Assembly: GCA_024998685.1 (NCBI GenBank)
Contig: JACOEH010000040.1
Coordinates: 1 to 46,011, forward strand
Length of the DNA stretch: 46,011 nt
DNA from: Nitrospira sp.
GTDB taxonomy: Bacteria > Nitrospirota > Nitrospiria > Nitrospirales > Nitrospiraceae
Reading direction: 5' to 3'
The translations under genes were made by a program, and so were the position numbers. Below, one piece after another: positions 4,185 through 14,743 of the stretch (positions within the stretch are counted from its first letter, which is position 1; each line of letters opens with the position of its first letter). The notes beneath the pieces were generated by a model, which did no database searches, was not told the DNA's origin, and saw nothing but the letters and a program-made list of their open reading frames with translations.

Positions 4185-5468
4185 CTATTTCCACCAAGAG
4201 GACAACGGGAAAGCCGTCGGGATCCGGAGCGTCACTTGGAGGTCGGGCGCTTCACGTGTCGCGCCGATTCCGACGACGAAGTTGATAAAGCTGCGATCAC
4301 TCCATCGATAGGAACCGCCGATGAGCAAGACCCCGATTTGAATGGCTTGCGGCGTGGTGGTGAGGAGCAGGTTAGAGGCAGACGTGGGTTTCGAAAAGAC
4401 GGTATGGTCGTACGCCAGCGTCAATGATAACTTCTCATTCAGCGACACTCCGAGCCCCACATTGGCATTGCCGCCGCTTCCAGGATCGACACGCCCGACA
4501 TTGCCGCCGACATCGCGCGGCATATTATAAATAAAACTCACACTGCTGAAGAGGACGACCGGATCGCTGGGGAACAGCATGGTCAGGCCCGGTTGAAAAA
4601 TATAAAAGCCGGATCCCGTCGGTAAGTCCGTCTGCACCCCTGTGATCGGATCTCTCGGCACTTCAAATGGGCCCCTTCCGCTGACGCTCTTGAATCGTGC
4701 GAACCCGATGAAATACGGTGTATCCGGCCCTCCTTGGTTGAGCTGAAATCGACCGGTTGTTTCAACATCTCCGAGACCCGAACCGTTGAAGGTCGAGATG
4801 GTATCAGCCTGCGATGGGGTGGCAATGGGTCGCTGCGTGATCGAGTCCTCCCGATAGAGAAAGGGCACACGCACCTCAACCTCCATCCGATTCGTCAATC
4901 CGTAGCGACCGACCAGTGCTGCGGTATAAATATCCCGGCTTATACCTTGGATATTGATGAACCCGGCCGTTAGCGCCGGAACGATGGTGAACCCGGTCAA
5001 CGTCACCCGATTGCTACTCAGATGGGCGAACTGCAGATACGGCTCCACGATGAGCGTGCCCTTGGGCGTCAGCACCCCGGCACCAGGCAAATCGAAGGTG
5101 CGAGTCATCCATGAAGGAAGAATCTCTTGTGGACTAGCCGGAGCGACCCCGACCGGACCGCCAGGTTGCTGACGTTCTGAGGAGCGCTCTCGCGCGTCGG
5201 ACTCGTCCCGCTCGCCGCGTGGAGGTTCAGCTGCCTGGGCGGTCTGTTCGTTTGCGACGATGTTTGCGGCGATATAGTGCGGCGTATCCGCCGACCATCG
5301 AGAGCGAGGTGCTTGAAGGTTCGTGGATTGGCTGATATTTAACCGATCAACGTGATTGTCGGCGACCCCAGGTTGAGCTGCATTGATCTCGGAGGGAGGC
5401 AGGTTCCCGACGAGTCCAAGAGCGAAGGCGAGCCAGAACGTTCTATAAGTTTGTCTTACAGCTCTCAA
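4185..5468 (-). CDS. FapF-like outer-membrane beta-barrel, amyloid subunit exporter
   Basis: This 427-residue protein starts with a Sec signal (residues 1-31). A low-complexity, charged linker follows (32-115, with RGERDESDARERSSERQQ). A barrel of amphipathic strands begins at about residue 123 with FDLPGAGVLTPKGTLIVEP. The segment 'GVLTPKGTLxVEPxxQxxHxSSNRV' and later 'ARYGLTNRMEVEVRVPF' match the FapF/phenol-MetA-type barrel family as I know it. FapF forms the pore through which Fap amyloid subunits leave the cell. It is the last gene of a five-gene operon, ten bases after the FapE-like gene, as FapF is last in Pseudomonas fapABCDEF. The linker replaces the helical N-terminal part of Pseudomonas FapF and looks unlike it. 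Confidence 0.75.
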   Translation of the reverse strand: MRAVRQTYRTFWLAFALGLVGNLPPSEINAAQPGVADNHVDRLNISQSTNLQAPRSRWSADTPHYIAANIVANEQTAQAAEPPRGERDESDARERSSERQQPGGPVGVAPASPQEILPSWMTRTFDLPGAGVLTPKGTLIVEPYLQFAHLSSNRVTLTGFTIVPALTAGFINIQGISRDIYTAALVGRYGLTNRMEVEVRVPFLYREDSITQRPIATPSQADTISTFNGSGLGDVETTGRFQLNQGGPDTPYFIGFARFKSVSGRGPFEVPRDPITGVQTDLPTGSGFYIFQPGLTMLFPSDPVVLFSSVSFIYNMPRDVGGNVGRVDPGSGGNANVGLGVSLNEKLSLTLAYDHTVFSKPTSASNLLLTTTPQAIQIGVLLIGGSYRWSDRSFINFVVGIGATREAPDLQVTLRIPTAFPLSSWWK

Positions 5469-5478
5469 TACTTCGCCT

Positions 5479-5988
5479 TCAATGTCGGATCGCCTCTATG
5501 CTGGCCTGAGAGAGCGCGTTTCCAAGGTCGAGCGCTCGGGCCCACGTCAGCGCCGACACCGTGGCATTGATGACGGTATGGCTCTGAATGGCTTGATTAT
5601 CCAGTGAATTCTGAATGACGGTCGTCAATGGCGGAAGCGAGGACAAGTTATGAGGGACTGAATTACCACCCCCATGTTGGACGAGCGTGAAGGCATCGCC
5701 CGCCTTGTCGGCCAATCGCGACAAGTCTGGAATATTCAGTACGGTTGAATTGATCAGTTTATCATTGAGGAACACGCTTCGCTCGATTCCAAATGACATC
5801 ATGGGACCATCCGGGTGATGCTGAAATCCACCGCGCATACTATCCAAGACTTCTTCGTTCACCGGCGTCAGGAGTGTAAAGTCCTCAATGCTCTCGTATG
5901 CCATAGTCGGAGTGACGGGCGACATACCCAGGAGAACGAACAGCAGAGCTGTCCTCATCTGGCCAATCGATTTCAACAAGAGGCGCAT
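5479..5988 (-). CDS. FapE-like secreted protein with GG processing motif
   Basis: This 169-residue protein has a Sec signal ending near A30. A short acidic segment ends in VNEEVLDSMRGG (G53-G54), which looks like the double-glycine leader cut by C39 peptidases. After the GG comes a soluble domain. Residues 124-143 read VIQNSLDNQAIQSHTVINAT, closely matching the C terminus of the small subunit encoded at 6693-7037. The start codon overlaps the C39 peptidase stop by one base (TAATG), so the two are translationally coupled. Position between the C39 peptidase and the barrel is that of fapE. The FapE assignment rests on operon order; sequence similarity to Pseudomonas FapE was not testable here. 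Confidence 0.6.
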   Translation of the reverse strand: MRLLLKSIGQMRTALLFVLLGMSPVTPTMAYESIEDFTLLTPVNEEVLDSMRGGFQHHPDGPMMSFGIERSVFLNDKLINSTVLNIPDLSRLADKAGDAFTLVQHGGGNSVPHNLSSLPPLTTVIQNSLDNQAIQSHTVINATVSALTWARALDLGNALSQASIEAIRH

Positions 5989-6680
5989 TAGAAATCCCTC
6001 CCTCCCGGGCGAAAGAGAACGATGTTGTTCAAGGTATCCGGACTCAGCGGCCGGCCGAGCGGGGACATCGGACGGACGCTCCAGTCTCGGGCCGTATTGA
6101 ATTCACCACGTGTCGGTGAATCATGGATGACAAACACCACCCGGCTGGGCCATGAGGCTTCAAACTGCTCGCGCGGCACGACACGTAATCCGACTGCCGG
6201 ATCGCCGAGCAGCACCTTATCGCCCCGCATGCCTTTCACCACCACAAAATGGTGATACCCCTTATCGACCATTAGGACGATCGCCGGAATGCCGGCCTTC
6301 GAGAGCTCGTCCAGGGAAACTTCAAACCCGTCCGCTGGGTAACCCTGAGCTTCCAAAAATCGCTTCATGTCCAGGAGCGAAAACCCTTCCTTCTGGATCT
6401 TTTCCTGGTCACCATGGTCGAACATCGTGCGAAAGGTGACCTCCTCAGTCATTGGATGACCATAGTGATAAGTCAAGAGGGTGGCGACGGCGGCCGAACC
6501 ACAACTATAGTCATATTTCTGAAGGATGACGGATCGGACCTTCAGTTCGCGCATGCTCCAGACTTGGATCAACATCCGGCTCCCTACTCCTGGAGTCACC
6601 TCCACCGTCGCCGCCATCGCCGCTGTCGCGATCGACAGCAGCACTACAACCGTCCATCCGATGATCTGTTTCGTGGGCAT
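5988..6680 (-). CDS. Exported C39-family cysteine peptidase (FapD-like)
   Basis: This 230-residue protein has a signal peptide or membrane anchor at residues 8-24. A single C39 papain-like domain follows with Gln54 (oxyanion), catalytic Cys60 in YDYSCGSAA, His143/His144 in GYHHFVVVKG and Asp160 in LLGDPAVG. All three catalytic positions are intact. Bacteriocin C39 domains sit on the cytoplasmic side of ABC exporters and cut after GG. This one has no transporter and should act in the periplasm, as FapD does in the Pseudomonas amyloid operon. It starts twelve bases after the small subunit gene and overlaps the FapE-like gene. The two neighbours carrying GG motifs are its likely substrates. Confidence 0.85.
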   Translation of the reverse strand: MPTKQIIGWTVVVLLSIATAAMAATVEVTPGVGSRMLIQVWSMRELKVRSVILQKYDYSCGSAAVATLLTYHYGHPMTEEVTFRTMFDHGDQEKIQKEGFSLLDMKRFLEAQGYPADGFEVSLDELSKAGIPAIVLMVDKGYHHFVVVKGMRGDKVLLGDPAVGLRVVPREQFEASWPSRVVFVIHDSPTRGEFNTARDWSVRPMSPLGRPLSPDTLNNIVLFRPGGRDF

Positions 6681-6692
6681 TCGAAGCCTAGT

Positions 6693-7037
6693 TTATTTCA
6701 TCGTTAAGTTCAGGACCGTGCCGCTCTGAATAATTACGTTATTGCCGGAATTCTGGATGACGATCGGCAGGCCAGCCGCCCCGGCAAACGCATTGCCGTT
6801 GATTGTATTGTTGCCGGTCACGTTGTCTATGGCGGCATTGTTGTTCAACTTGGCGTTCAGGAAATTCGCATTGATCGTGACCGGGCCGGTATCCGTTCCT
6901 CCCCGTTGGGATTCTAATTGGGCAATAGGGATGGGTTTGCCCCAGAACGTCACTTCAGGATTTTCCGGCGAGCCGGCATGCGCGATGCCCGCGCAGAGCC
7001 CCAGGACGGTCACCACTGATGAGAAGAAGATGCGCAT
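6693..7037 (-). CDS. Small Fap-like amyloid subunit with GG processing motif
   Basis: This 114-residue exported protein has a signal peptide cut near A21. It is followed by PIAQLESQRGG (G46-G47), a double-glycine-type motif. The mature part is rich in Asn, Ala and Gly and contains N-x-N-x patterns (INANFLNAKLNNNAAIDNVTG). It ends with VIQNSGNNVIIQSGTVLNLT at residues 93-112, a motif shared with its two neighbours. Composition and position suggest a minor subunit or nucleator like FapB. GAGAGGG precedes the ATG. The gene follows the large Gly-rich gene after 68 bases and precedes the C39 gene by twelve. The amyloid nature is inferred from the operon and composition. Confidence 0.65.
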   Translation of the reverse strand: MRIFFSSVVTVLGLCAGIAHAGSPENPEVTFWGKPIPIAQLESQRGGTDTGPVTINANFLNAKLNNNAAIDNVTGNNTINGNAFAGAAGLPIVIQNSGNNVIIQSGTVLNLTMK

Positions 7038-7105: not shown

Positions 7106-8050
7106 TTAGTGAACCGTGACGTTCGCCATCGTGGTGACACCGACCTGCTGAAGGGCCGCGATCCCCGTGTTCTGAATGGCTACAGTCACGCCGGCTGCGC
7201 CGCTAAATCCAGACAGCGTATTCGAGGCATTGAAGGTCCCGGCGCTTCCGCCGGTCGCATCCCCGCCTCTGCCGCCATTGCCACCATCCCCACCATTTGC
7301 AGTCGCGGTCGCAGCGCCGCTGGTCGCAGTTCCGCCTGCCCCACCATGTCCACCGGTTGCCGCGCCACCATTGCCCCCGGTTGCATTACCGGCCTCCCAA
7401 TCGCCATCTCGGGAGCTACCGTTATTGGGGCCGCCGTTGGCATTGCCGTCGCTAGAAGTGCCACCGTTGGACTGGCCACCATTGGTGCCGTTGGAAGTAT
7501 TGCTGCCAGAGGTAGTGGCATAGCCACCATGACCGCCCTTGGCATAGCCACCATCGCCACCGTATGAGTAGGCTTTCCCAGAATGGGCTTTGGCTTCGGC
7601 GTAGCCACCATCGCCACCCCGGCCTCCATAATTCCCATTATTGTAGGCATACCCTCCAGTATTGCCGATATCATGGACATTGTTATGTGACACATATCCA
7701 TCAAGTTTAGTGGCATTGACGATTTTGGTCTGGTTGAAGGAGTTGCTCACATCCACATCGAGCTTGGTGTACGCCGTGGAGTGATTGTTGGCTGCAGCCC
7801 CAAAGGCTCCGTCGTTGTTGGCTTCTCCCTTCCAGATTGTTTTTGTCTTGTCGATGTCAATCTTCACATCTTTATCAATCTTCACATCTTTTTTGACGTT
7901 GAAGCTGTCATCGATCTTCACTTTTGGATCGTGCGTTCCGTTGGGGGGAGCAGGGGTGCGTGGTCTGGAAGGAACGTCTTGGGCCCCTGCGAAGGGCGAC
8001 AAGCCGAAGGCCAATGCCACCGCTGCCGTCGTGATCATCACTTTCTTCAT
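7106..8050 (-). CDS. Large Gly-rich secreted protein, probable major amyloid subunit
   Basis: This 314-residue protein begins with a signal peptide ending near Q24 and a proline-rich stretch. A Lys/Asp heptad-like segment (KKDVKIDKDVKIDIDKTK) and an Asn/Ser-rich domain follow. From about residue 130 to 275 it consists of Gly-rich repeats (GGDGGYA, GGHGGYA, GGNGGAATGG). It ends with AGVTVAIQNTG and a tail that aligns with the C termini of the two other subunits. No GG-leader motif was seen. It is the first gene of the operon, with AGGAGG upstream of ATG. Length and order fit the main fibre protein (FapC role), although Pseudomonas FapC repeats are Gln/Asn-rich rather than Gly-rich. Confidence 0.65.
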   Translation of the reverse strand: MKKVMITTAAVALAFGLSPFAGAQDVPSRPRTPAPPNGTHDPKVKIDDSFNVKKDVKIDKDVKIDIDKTKTIWKGEANNDGAFGAAANNHSTAYTKLDVDVSNSFNQTKIVNATKLDGYVSHNNVHDIGNTGGYAYNNGNYGGRGGDGGYAEAKAHSGKAYSYGGDGGYAKGGHGGYATTSGSNTSNGTNGGQSNGGTSSDGNANGGPNNGSSRDGDWEAGNATGGNGGAATGGHGGAGGTATSGAATATANGGDGGNGGRGGDATGGSAGTFNASNTLSGFSGAAGVTVAIQNTGIAALQQVGVTTMANVTVH

Positions 8051-9051: not shown

Positions 9052-10044
9052 CTATGGCTCCGCGTGATTGCAAGTGGTCACGGACGAGTCGACGGGGGAT
9101 GGTACGAGTTTTTCCAGGTTATAAGCCCGAAGTTTTCTGTACAAGGTCGTTCGACTCACTTCCAGCTCGCGCGCCACACGGGTCAAATTCCCTCGATGCA
9201 TGCTGATCGCCTTGATGATCAGTTCTACTTCAATCCGGCGGTGCGCAGCCCGTATGGAATCTAGAGAGTCTTCAGGTTGGACCGTCTCGCAAGTCAAATC
9301 CAAGTCGCGAGGCGTAATGTCCTCGCCTTCCGCCATGACGACGGCTCGTCTGACCTTATTACTGAGCTCCCGCACGTTGCCGGGCCAGGCATAGGACTGA
9401 ATCGCTTGAATGGCCTCAGAGGTATAGCGCCGTATCGGCTTCTGATAGAAGGCTGCAGCGCGCTTGAGAAATATCATGGCCATGAGGGAGGTGTCCTCCC
9501 CTCGCTCCCGAAGCGGAGAAAGATGAATGTGCATCACTTCCAATCGATAATAGAGATCCTCTCGAAACAGGTTCTTATCGATGGCCGCCTTGAGATCGAC
9601 GTTGGTCGCCGCGATCACGCGCGCATTGACGCGGAGAGTCTGTTGTCCACCGAGCCGCTCAAACGTGCCCTCCTGCAAAAAACGGAGCAGCTTGACCTGC
9701 AGCGGCGGAAGCAGATCGCCGACTTCATCGAGAAACAGGGTGCCGCCATCCGCCGCTTCGATCTTCCCTTTCTTTTGCTGCACCGCCCCGGTAAAGGCTC
9801 CCCGTTCATGTCCGAAGAGTTCCGACTCCAACAATGTTTCAGGGATGGCAGCGCAATTAATCGGCACAAAGGGGCCTTGCTTCCGCAGGCTGCGGTCATG
9901 AATCGCCTGGGCGGTGAGTTCCTTGCCCGTACCGGTTTCGCCGGTAATCAACACCGGCATGTCGGTTTTCGCCACCTTCCGGACCAGATCGAAGACCGCG
10001 CGAATGGAGGGACTTGTTCCGACCATTTCTTCTAATACTTCCAT
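9052..10044 (-). CDS. Sigma-54 activator without receiver domain (PspF-like architecture)
   Basis: This 330-residue protein consists of an AAA+ sigma-54 interaction domain and a Fis-type helix-turn-helix. Walker A is GETGTGKE (residues 35-42), the sigma-54 loop is GAFTGA (82-87) and Walker B is GGTLFLDEVGD (100-110). Arginine fingers are in the expected FREDLYYRL region, and the DNA-binding helices are in LTRVARELEVSRTTLYRKL near 286-305. An in-frame TGA lies two codons before the ATG, so no N-terminal receiver or sensor domain is encoded. Activity must therefore be controlled by expression or by a partner, as PspF is by PspA. It is transcribed in the same direction as the Fap-like operon and lies just upstream of region B. 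Confidence 0.85.
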   Translation of the reverse strand: MEVLEEMVGTSPSIRAVFDLVRKVAKTDMPVLITGETGTGKELTAQAIHDRSLRKQGPFVPINCAAIPETLLESELFGHERGAFTGAVQQKKGKIEAADGGTLFLDEVGDLLPPLQVKLLRFLQEGTFERLGGQQTLRVNARVIAATNVDLKAAIDKNLFREDLYYRLEVMHIHLSPLRERGEDTSLMAMIFLKRAAAFYQKPIRRYTSEAIQAIQSYAWPGNVRELSNKVRRAVVMAEGEDITPRDLDLTCETVQPEDSLDSIRAAHRRIEVELIIKAISMHRGNLTRVARELEVSRTTLYRKLRAYNLEKLVPSPVDSSVTTCNHAEP

Positions 10045-12186: not shown

Positions 12187-13140
12187 TCAGAGGTCCAGTG
12201 ACAAATCCCATTTCTCTCCGAGCTTCAGATCCCAAAACTCAGGAGTATACTTGACAATCCCTGCTGCGGGGGTGAAGGTCAGTTCACCAAAATAGATGCG
12301 TCCACTGACATTATATAAGTCCACCCGGACATAGCCAAACCCGACCGACAGCTTCGCGGCCAGTGCCAGCATCTCGTCAAGATTTGCGGGCTTCGGTAAC
12401 CACGGCCGGGCTACACATTTGTCCTTATAGGTCACCTCGAGGAGATTCCAGGTCGTATCGAAGATCGGCCAGATATCTTGTGTTGTGTCTTGTATATGAC
12501 TGCGCACGAGAATCTGATCCGGCGCGCCGTTGAAACAGTAGCACTTATAGTTGAATGGTGCATTACCATCCTGATCTTTCAGATATTCCTCGATCACAAT
12601 TCGTGGCTTGATACCATAGTACTGATACTCACGTCCGTGCCAATAATAGTTGCACGCCAACCATTCCGAGACCGTCCGGATGATCTCGTCTCGATCAGCC
12701 TTGCCTCTAACAATGATGACTTGTCCAGCGGCGTGGTTCGGCTTGATCACATACTCCTCCGGCAGCCGGTCAAACGGAATCGCGCGCGGGTCATTCCCAT
12801 GCCATAAGAGCTTGATCAAATACTTCTCACCCACGGTCTTCGCCACATGCGCGCGCACCGCGTACTTATCAGCCAACTTCGTAAACCGAAAAGGCATGTC
12901 GCCTCGATTCCAGGTAACCATGCGCCAGAACAGCTTCTCCGTAAAGGTCTGGGGATTCGTCAGATTGAGCGGTTTGCCGTGGATCCGAACATATCTGCGC
13001 AACAGGAAGGCCTCGCCTTCGGAGCGCCGCATGACCCGGCGTCTGATGCCTCGGTATTGATCGACAAGACCATGAAGCCATGTCGCTCGTAACTTACCTT
13101 TGAGAGCTGCGATTGCTATTGGTCGGACAAGATGCTTCAT
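12187..13140 (-). CDS. TupA-like ATP-grasp protein, copy 1
   Basis: This 317-residue protein matches the ATP-grasp TupA-like family. Diagnostic segments are LTNPQTFTEKLFWRM (residues 59-73), LADKYAVRAHV, LPEEYVIKPNHAAGQVIIVRG (ATP-binding strand with the Lys and His), IVIEEYLKD and the metal/ATP end GFGYVRVDLYNVSGRIYFGELTFTPAAG. TupA was named for teichuronopeptide synthesis. Relatives are found in polysaccharide and cell-surface gene sets and probably ligate an amino acid or similar group to a sugar or peptide. A close paralogue lies 650 bases upstream (13793-14743). The two are so alike through residues 45-125 that recent duplication is likely. Confidence 0.8.
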   Translation of the reverse strand: MKHLVRPIAIAALKGKLRATWLHGLVDQYRGIRRRVMRRSEGEAFLLRRYVRIHGKPLNLTNPQTFTEKLFWRMVTWNRGDMPFRFTKLADKYAVRAHVAKTVGEKYLIKLLWHGNDPRAIPFDRLPEEYVIKPNHAAGQVIIVRGKADRDEIIRTVSEWLACNYYWHGREYQYYGIKPRIVIEEYLKDQDGNAPFNYKCYCFNGAPDQILVRSHIQDTTQDIWPIFDTTWNLLEVTYKDKCVARPWLPKPANLDEMLALAAKLSVGFGYVRVDLYNVSGRIYFGELTFTPAAGIVKYTPEFWDLKLGEKWDLSLDL

Positions 13141-13792: not shown

Positions 13793-14743
13793 TCAACTGT
13801 CCAGTGCCAAGTCCCACTTCTCCCCGAGCTTTACATCCCAATGGTCGGGACTAAACTGGAAAATTCCCGCGCCCGGCGTTAGAGTTAATTCGCCGCAATA
13901 GATCCGCCCATTGGTGTTGTACAAATCGACGCGGATGAAACCGAATCCCTGCGACAGTCGCCTTGCCAACTCAAACATGTGTTCAAAGTACGTGGGCTGT
14001 GCGATGGGAGGTCGAGTCGCTTTCTTCCTGGTGTGGAGATCCAATTGATTCCATTGGGCGTCAAAAAAAGGGTTGATGTCGTGGGCATGGTTATCCACTT
14101 GGATGACTGCTGGAGCTCCTCCGAAACACCAAAATCTGTAATCGAGGAGCTCACTGTCATCCTCATCCTGGCTTTTCAAATACTCCTCGATCATAATCTT
14201 GGGTCTAATCCCATAGTATTGATATTCACGGGCCTGCCAATAATAATCTTTGGCCAACCAACCCGATACTTGACGGATAATTTCCTCGCGATTTGCCTCG
14301 CCTCGGACAATGATCACTTCCCCACTGGAGTGGTTCGGCTTGATCACGTACTCGGCCGGCAGCCGGTCAAAGGGGATCGTGCGCGGATCGCTTCCCTGCC
14401 ATAAGAGCTTGATCAGATACTCCTCACCTATCGTTTTCGCCACATGCGCGCGCACCGCATACTTATCGGCCAGTTGTCGAAACCGCGGAGGCATGTCGCC
14501 TCGATTCCAGGTAATCATGCGCCAAAACAGCTTTTCCGTAAAGGTCTGGGGATTCGTCAGATTGAGCGGTTTGCCATGAATCCGAACATATCTGTGCAAC
14601 AGCACGGCTTCGCCTTCGGATCGCCGCATGACCCGGCGCTTGATGTCCCGATAGTGGACGACGAGATCACGCAGCCAGGTGTCTCGCAGCTTGGCGCGAA
14701 GCGCTGCGGTTCCTGATGTATGGACGGCTTGATCCATTCTCAC
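13793..14743 (-). CDS. TupA-like ATP-grasp protein, copy 2
   Basis: This 316-residue paralogue of the protein at 12187-13140 has the same landmarks: LTNPQTFTEKLFWRM, LADKYAVRAHV, LPAEYVIKPNHSSGEVIIVRG, IMIEEYLKS and GFIRVDLYNTNGRIYCGELTLTPGAG. The centre (residues 195-255) differs most, including a DEDDSELLDYRFWCFGGAP segment. The substrate side may therefore have diverged while the ATP site stayed fixed. Both copies are transcribed to the left with no other genes nearby. The substrate cannot be named from sequence; a role in modifying a cell-surface polymer is a family-based guess. Confidence 0.8.
   Translation of the reverse strand: MRMDQAVHTSGTAALRAKLRDTWLRDLVVHYRDIKRRVMRRSEGEAVLLHRYVRIHGKPLNLTNPQTFTEKLFWRMITWNRGDMPPRFRQLADKYAVRAHVAKTIGEEYLIKLLWQGSDPRTIPFDRLPAEYVIKPNHSSGEVIIVRGEANREEIIRQVSGWLAKDYYWQAREYQYYGIRPKIMIEEYLKSQDEDDSELLDYRFWCFGGAPAVIQVDNHAHDINPFFDAQWNQLDLHTRKKATRPPIAQPTYFEHMFELARRLSQGFGFIRVDLYNTNGRIYCGELTLTPGAGIFQFSPDHWDVKLGEKWDLALDS

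Follow-up and report, generated by a model that had tools for sequence, protein, structure and literature searches.

A Nitrospira operon probably encodes a Fap-like fibre-secretion system, the minor subunits of which carry a Sec signal peptide and then a GG-type leader that would be cut by a periplasmic C39 peptidase. The Sec-like signal and the GG-type leader stand in series in these proteins, and their genes are linked to, and co-occur with, the gene of an exported C39 peptidase with an intact active site and usually with that of an outer-membrane barrel. Judged from the sequences, the site is confined to the FapE-like protein and other small subunits, and the major FapC-like subunit is without it.

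In the Fap system FapD acts in the periplasm and its Cys is needed for FapC secretion (PMC5557850). The same 2017 paper describes the Fap proteins as having no canonical C39 sequences; it also reports FapE as the only Fap protein for which peptides from the first ~70 residues were missing, notes a GG/GA in FapE and names FapE as the suspect (PMC5557850). A 2018 review calls the FapD substrate undetermined and mentions that homologues of fapD and fapF lie together in a further five phyla (PMC6173800), and in a 2013 survey fap operons were confined to Proteobacteria (PMC3792158). In the model of the 2025 paper on Neisseria Nap, a C39 peptidase cleaves GG peptides in the periplasm and a FapF-like channel exports them (PMC11798529). 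Thus, the idea is not wholly new, since FapE was suspected in 2017 and periplasmic C39 cleavage at GG is already proposed in the passages of the Nap paper. As to a leader shared across phyla or a site in FapE, no statement was found in the passages of the literature searched, outside which lie most subscription journals and all preprints.

The window, i.e. the whole stretch of 46,011 nucleotides that was analysed, has five genes for exported proteins in series on the minus strand. They encode a Gly/Asn-rich protein of 314 aa (7106..8050) that occupies the place of the FapC-like major subunit, a small subunit of 114 aa (6693..7037), a FapD/FilB-like C39 peptidase of 230 aa (5988..6680), a protein of 169 aa in the FapE position (5479..5988) and a FapF-like outer-membrane barrel with an N-terminal periplasmic part (4185..5468). 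The 169- and 114-aa proteins have a GG-type leader. The 314-aa protein has no GG-type motif (its score is -5.4 bits), and none is found in the barrel. None of the 169-, 114- and 314-aa proteins matches the FapE or the FapB/FapC models. The 314-aa protein has no match to any family and is therefore FapC-like by position and composition only, and the 169-aa protein may be called FapE-like by its position and the shared motif region, not by the FapE model. The predicted model of the latter is of low confidence (mean pLDDT 49.8).

The operon resembles Fap (FapA-F, with periplasmic FapD) in having an exported C39 peptidase, a protein in the FapE position, a FapF-like barrel and a Gly/Asn-rich subunit in one operon. 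However, the peptidase matches FapD (NF058616) with 136.7 bits (7e-40) and the barrel matches FapF (NF058560) with 104.4 bits (6e-30), below the cut-offs of 330 and 700 bits, there is no FapE or FapC model match, and the Nitrospira sites end in GG where FapE sites end in GR or GK. The gene order (subunits, C39, FapE position, barrel) is that of loci L159, with a FapC match over the cut-off and FapD and FapE matches, and L168, with FapE and FapF matches; both look like true fap operons by these models. The Fil ‘putative pilus’ system (FilA, FilB, FilC; DUF6160) also combines an exported C39 peptidase with a barrel and has a [VA]TGQ-type site behind the signal. Its last leader residue is mostly Q, though, its cargo is of another family, and the FilB and FilC matches of the window (118.5 bits, 3e-34, cut-off 475; 50.4 bits, 2e-13, cut-off 630) lie below their cut-offs and are weaker than its FapD and FapF matches.

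At their C-termini the 314-, 114- and 169-aa proteins have Gln/Asn stretches that resemble each other (AIQNTG..., VIQNSG... and VIQNSL..., respectively). The stretch is also seen in a Rhodoferax locus (L010) and could be a common fibre or barrel-recognition element. Downstream of the operon and on the same strand (366-2380, minus) lie genes for a radical SAM/SPASM protein, a PqqD-like protein and a small ferredoxin. These may form a RiPP-type cluster of their own; the best NCBIfam match of the radical SAM/SPASM protein is an StsB-type sactipeptide maturase (1.3e-81, under cut-off). Upstream, again on the same strand, a sigma-54 activator (PF00158, 1.3e-72) is encoded at 9052-10044, minus. Sigma-54 promoter patterns occur nine times in the window against a chance mean of 6.98, with none near the operon start. 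The adjacent ORFs at 12187-13140 and 13793-14743 (317 and 316 aa) are evidently paralogues when compared by eye.

The leader and the peptidase could act as proposed on another kind of cargo, with the small exported proteins being bacteriocin-like or autolysis peptides of the Nap type instead of fibre subunits. The Neisseria nap island (NapP, NapF, NapA-C) indeed pairs a C39 peptidase and a FapF-like channel with peptides that have a GG motif (PMC11798529). However, the Nap peptides are below 10 kDa and are involved in autolysis, and the passages that describe them name no Sec signal (PMC11798529). In the window the 169-aa protein occupies the FapE position and both small proteins have IQN motifs at the C-terminus, as does the large Gly/Asn-rich protein, and two other loci are fap by the FapC, FapD, FapE and FapF models. 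Hence, we consider Nap-like cargo unlikely and keep to fibre subunits.

Both leaders follow predicted Sec signal peptides, called by eye and by a hydrophobicity rule. In the 169-aa protein the signal covers residues 1-30 (5899..5988, minus) and ends near residue 30 (between TMA and YE), and 24 residues later ends the motif VNEEVLDSMRGG (positions -12 to -1; residues 43-54; 5827..5862, minus). In the 114-aa protein the signal covers residues 1-21 (6975..7037, minus), ending near residue 21 (between AHA and GS), and the motif IPIAQLESQRGG (-12 to -1; residues 36-47; 6897..6932, minus) ends 26 residues further on. The preliminary description had noted just these, two GG motifs about 25 residues past the signal peptides and an exported C39 peptidase between the two carriers, and both observations hold: the motifs are present and the protein between them matches PF03412 (7e-22) and has a signal-like N-terminus. 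At positions -12, -7, -4, -2 and -1 the 169-aa leader has V, L, M, G and G, in keeping with the double-glycine pattern of L or another hydrophobic residue at -12, L/M at -7, a hydrophobic -4, G at -2 and G/A/S at -1; the 114-aa leader has I, L, Q, G and G, so that its -4 residue is not hydrophobic.

The 169-aa site scores 26.4 bits with the full cross-phylum model described below and 19.7 bits when Nitrospirota are held out, a score reached by 0 of 20,000 shuffles. For the 114-aa site the values are 16.1 and 7.5 bits, the latter being attained by 113 of 20,000 shuffles. With Nitrospirota held out this second site is thus weaker, and the case for it rests mainly on conservation: L41, R45, G46 and G47 are invariant in 9/9 aligned homologues. 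In 20 stretches taken from further contigs of this genome, the 152 exported ORFs all stay below 9 bits (the best has 8.8), and RGG is absent from their residues 19-95. Over eight Nitrospira loci (the window and L003-L009) pN/pS of the 169-aa protein is 0.66 before the motif, 0.19 in the motif and 0.31 after it, the motif being the most constrained part. The corresponding values of the 114-aa protein are 0.43, 0.28 and 0.25, and the contrast is only between the motif and the stretch before it. The gene of the FapE-like protein is found in 8/79 genomes of the genus, exactly the eight with a close C39 homologue, and adjoins the C39 gene. In another Nitrospira (G023; L189/L036) lies a second exported C39 locus, of divergent sequence; the gene beside the peptidase encodes a near-perfect leader, LSEPEMAGIRGGF.

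The peptidase matches PF03412 with 78.1 bits (cut-off 22), and its C60, H144, D160 and oxyanion Q54 are invariant in an 18-row alignment. Across the 119 loci of the comparison set Gln, Cys and Asp are kept in all and His in 118. The closest solved structures by sequence are LahT, PCAT1 and ComA. The predicted fold (block pLDDT of 87-94 in residues 51-180) comes nearest to ComA (Z 18.6), PCAT1 (18.4) and leader-bound LahT (18.1), all within a tie. The nearest structures by sequence and by predicted fold are thus double-glycine peptidases, and the enzyme is of the right kind. With the C39 domains of the ABC exporters it shares the fold and the catalytic residues, and the leaders share the register of L-12, E-8, L-7, a hydrophobic -4 and G-2. 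However, there the peptidase is a domain of the exporter and here it is a separate exported protein; there the leader is the export signal and here it follows a Sec signal. With a signal-like hydrophobic N-terminus before it, the leader thus differs from the N-terminal leader of ABC-exporter cargo, and no ABC exporter gene is found among the ORFs listed beside the operon.

The leader could also serve as an address and not as a cut site, with the periplasmic C39 protein binding it, as a chaperone or adaptor would, and passing the subunits on to the barrel, just as HlyB uses its C39-like domain for its own substrate. Non-cleaving C39-like domains exist (PMC5557850, PMC6363468), and the often large -1 residue fits poorly to the narrow pocket described for LahT (PMC6363468). 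Against this stand the active-site residues, kept in 118-119 of the 119 loci, and the Cys-to-Ala mutant of FapD, which abolishes FapC secretion (PMC5557850). We therefore see little probability in a pure address and prefer cleavage of the leader.

The comparison set was built from loci with a FapD/FilB-like C39 protein, beginning with 25 named loci and continuing with profile searches. These matched 10/198 genomes of Nitrospirota, 45/369 of Gammaproteobacteria, 30/150 of Campylobacterota, 2/149 of Planctomycetota and 28/297 of the phylum to which the Geobacteraceae locus L011 belongs, here called Desulfobacterota; some genomes bear the phylum label of the search that drew them. The places read were 47/57 in Gammaproteobacteria, 27/28 in Desulfobacterota and 21/41 in Campylobacterota. 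Left out were six loci nearly identical to others and L213-L232, which are short duplicates apart from one hit of the ABC type. This resulted in 119 loci, with some near relatives (L183-L185) kept. Two genomes, G315 and G1015, have seven exported-C39 profile matches each, which suggests expanded locus families. Export was called by a simple, crude hydrophobicity rule.

Motif discovery free of priors in 296 exported neighbours (ORFs within 1.5 kb of the C39 gene and on the same strand) gave L-S-D-x-E-L-x-x-[VMIL]-R-G-G-[FY] as the best motif. With models made from the other phyla and a threshold of 9 bits it is recovered in 8/11 loci of Nitrospirota, 27/31 of Desulfobacterota, 32/49 of Gammaproteobacteria and 7/27 of Campylobacterota. 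Among the controls, the threshold is reached by 3-8 of the 141 far ORFs, by 0-4 of the 152 own-genome ORFs and by 0.2-1.9 shuffled neighbours on average; the control rate is an upper bound, since high-scoring far ORFs (L180, L245, L248) look like extra carriers. An earlier setting with few random starts returned an Asn-rich motif with Desulfobacterota held out and was rejected; 70 starts led to the leader motif in all four hold-outs. In a crude first test the broadest hand-written pattern matched 81/318 neighbours (a set still including L213-L232, mostly duplicates) vs 9/141 far ORFs and 6/152 own-genome ORFs.

Lack of a GG motif in homologues had been put forward as the finding that would overturn the proposal. 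Under the full model a clean site lies within 3.5 kb in 91 of the 119 loci, in four phyla: 10/11 in Nitrospirota, 29/31 in Desulfobacterota, 39/49 in Gammaproteobacteria, 13/27 in Campylobacterota and 0/1 in Planctomycetota. The proposal thus withstands this check. No clean motif is found within that distance in 28/119 loci, 14 of them Campylobacterota. From the 184 rows at 9 bits 27 were set aside as being without L/M/F at -7, an allowed -4 residue or G/A at -2, and the clean-set frequencies at these positions are thus partly by construction. The set-aside rows are mostly coiled-coil stretches of barrels, with L244, L245 (EEEKQVVGGY) and L177 as sequences that may be real carriers.

The discovered motif is in the same register as the published C39 leaders of ComA, with L-12, E-8 and L-7, and of LahT, with pockets for V-4, L-7 and L-12 (PMC6363468). 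Leaders of the ABC type end in GG, GA or GS (PMC6363468), and the -1 residue of the leaders found here is commonly R, K, Q or E. In these cases either the S1 site is unlike that of LahT or the cut lies before -1. An attempt to relate C39 residues to the class of the -1 residue was not used; the comparison is confounded by descent. The double-glycine consensus claimed at the outset thus stands as regards the published register, but GG is one form only, and outside close relatives -1 is often R, K, Q or E.

The most regular carrier is the protein in the FapE position, encoded between the C39 and barrel genes. The motif is present in 16/16 matches to the curated FapE family, with at least 18.6 bits; they come from 15 of 369 gammaproteobacterial genomes. 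None of the 369 has a FapE match above the family cut-off, all 16 being below it. The residue after the glycine is R in 12 and K in 4 of them, and no Pseudomonas FapE is among the sequences shown. The Aeromonas caviae FapE site is LADGELAHLRGRYV. One match, L279 (G531:C6:538874-539560), has VGDDVLAGMRGRYV and lies ~300 kb from the nearer of its genome's two C39 places. The NCBIfam FapE model covers the motif region: a 47-aa piece of the L168 FapE scores 36.4 bits and the whole protein 88.7. Other exported carriers are FilA-like and DUF6160 proteins with [VA]TGQ- or [VI]xAQ-type sites and Campylobacterota proteins with EMKETKGEF-type sites. In L174 (2317-3519 and 3586-4569) the N-terminus, including its VTGQ- or ITAQ-type site, is covered by Pfam DUF6160 (PF19657), so DUF6160 may be a signal peptide plus leader; DUF6160 as a leader domain, together with the link to Fil, is what we infer from these sequences.

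Another candidate target is the barrel itself, namely the linker between its coiled coil and the barrel, with the motif of the small proteins read by something else. This possibility was raised in 2017 (PMC5557850), and a few barrels do have a leader-like site, e.g. L144 (ORF at 4412), VSSADLDTQRGG, with 20.3 bits, and L135 (ORF at 4487), HQVAELAEQRGG, with 15.1 bits; such cases bring barrel cleavage back as a possibility in those systems. Barrel homologues are present in 93/119 loci, and only 10/98 of them have at least 8 bits and G/A at -2 in residues 19-220; the window barrel is not among these. The small proteins have the motif in most loci, which makes the barrel as the general target very improbable and favours the small subunits.

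The motif might also be a structural element of mature FapE-like proteins, conserved by common descent and not a leader. From 157 clean rows one could not be matched to its ORF and three cores shorter than 25 aa were left out, and 56 of the 153 post-motif cores compared, with both window proteins among them, do fall in one single-linkage family. However, the other cores are spread over 44 further families (45 in all: 7 with several members and 38 singletons), in each of which the motif follows a signal-like N-terminus, and the register equals that of known C39 leaders. Families are mixed in 26/47 loci with several carriers, as expected of a leader. A structural element is thus only a slight possibility, and we retain the leader. 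Chance resemblance in Gly-rich proteins with frequent GG is extremely unlikely: plain GG fails to separate neighbours from shuffles (121/318 vs a mean of 103.8 and a largest value of 125) and the 114-aa site alone is reached by some shuffles, as given above, but the full motif is conserved in homologues and separates strongly across phyla, so that the phylum hold-outs already contradict chance.

We propose the following sequence of events. Targeted by its Sec signal peptide, the protein would reach the periplasm, where the exported C39 peptidase would bind the amphipathic leader by its hydrophobic residues at -12, -7 and usually -4 and its acidic residue at -8, and would cut at the G-[G/R/K/Q/E] that comes next. 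Once trimmed, the FapE-like and small subunits would proceed to the FapF-like barrel and license the major FapC-like subunit, itself untrimmed, for export or assembly. Their role may be to open the barrel, to prime it or to initiate the fibre, after which the major subunit would pass uncut. The same leader code would serve FapE in true Fap systems, FilA/DUF6160-type proteins in Fil and small exported proteins of Campylobacterota. The two-step route suggested initially, with the role that it gives to FapD-type peptidases, is thus supported for the FapE-like and small subunits and does not extend to the major FapC-like subunit, which has no site.

We also lean, with some reserve, towards a general secretion code of diderm bacteria, in which a Sec signal and a double-glycine-type leader are combined with a free periplasmic C39 peptidase and a barrel of the FapF/FilC/NapF type. 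Such a code would unite Fap, Fil, Nap and an unnamed Campylobacterota system, DUF6160 would be a leader domain, and FapE, cut at LxxMRG[RK], would be the FapD substrate.

FapD is needed for Fap secretion and its substrate has long been open; the pattern amounts to a residue-level prediction of both substrate and site, which extends to Fap, Fil and related systems in four phyla. It gives a testable answer to what FapD-type enzymes cut while bacteria build surface fibres. If true, the double-glycine leader, known from ABC exporters, would move to a second compartment and to a second kind of exporter.
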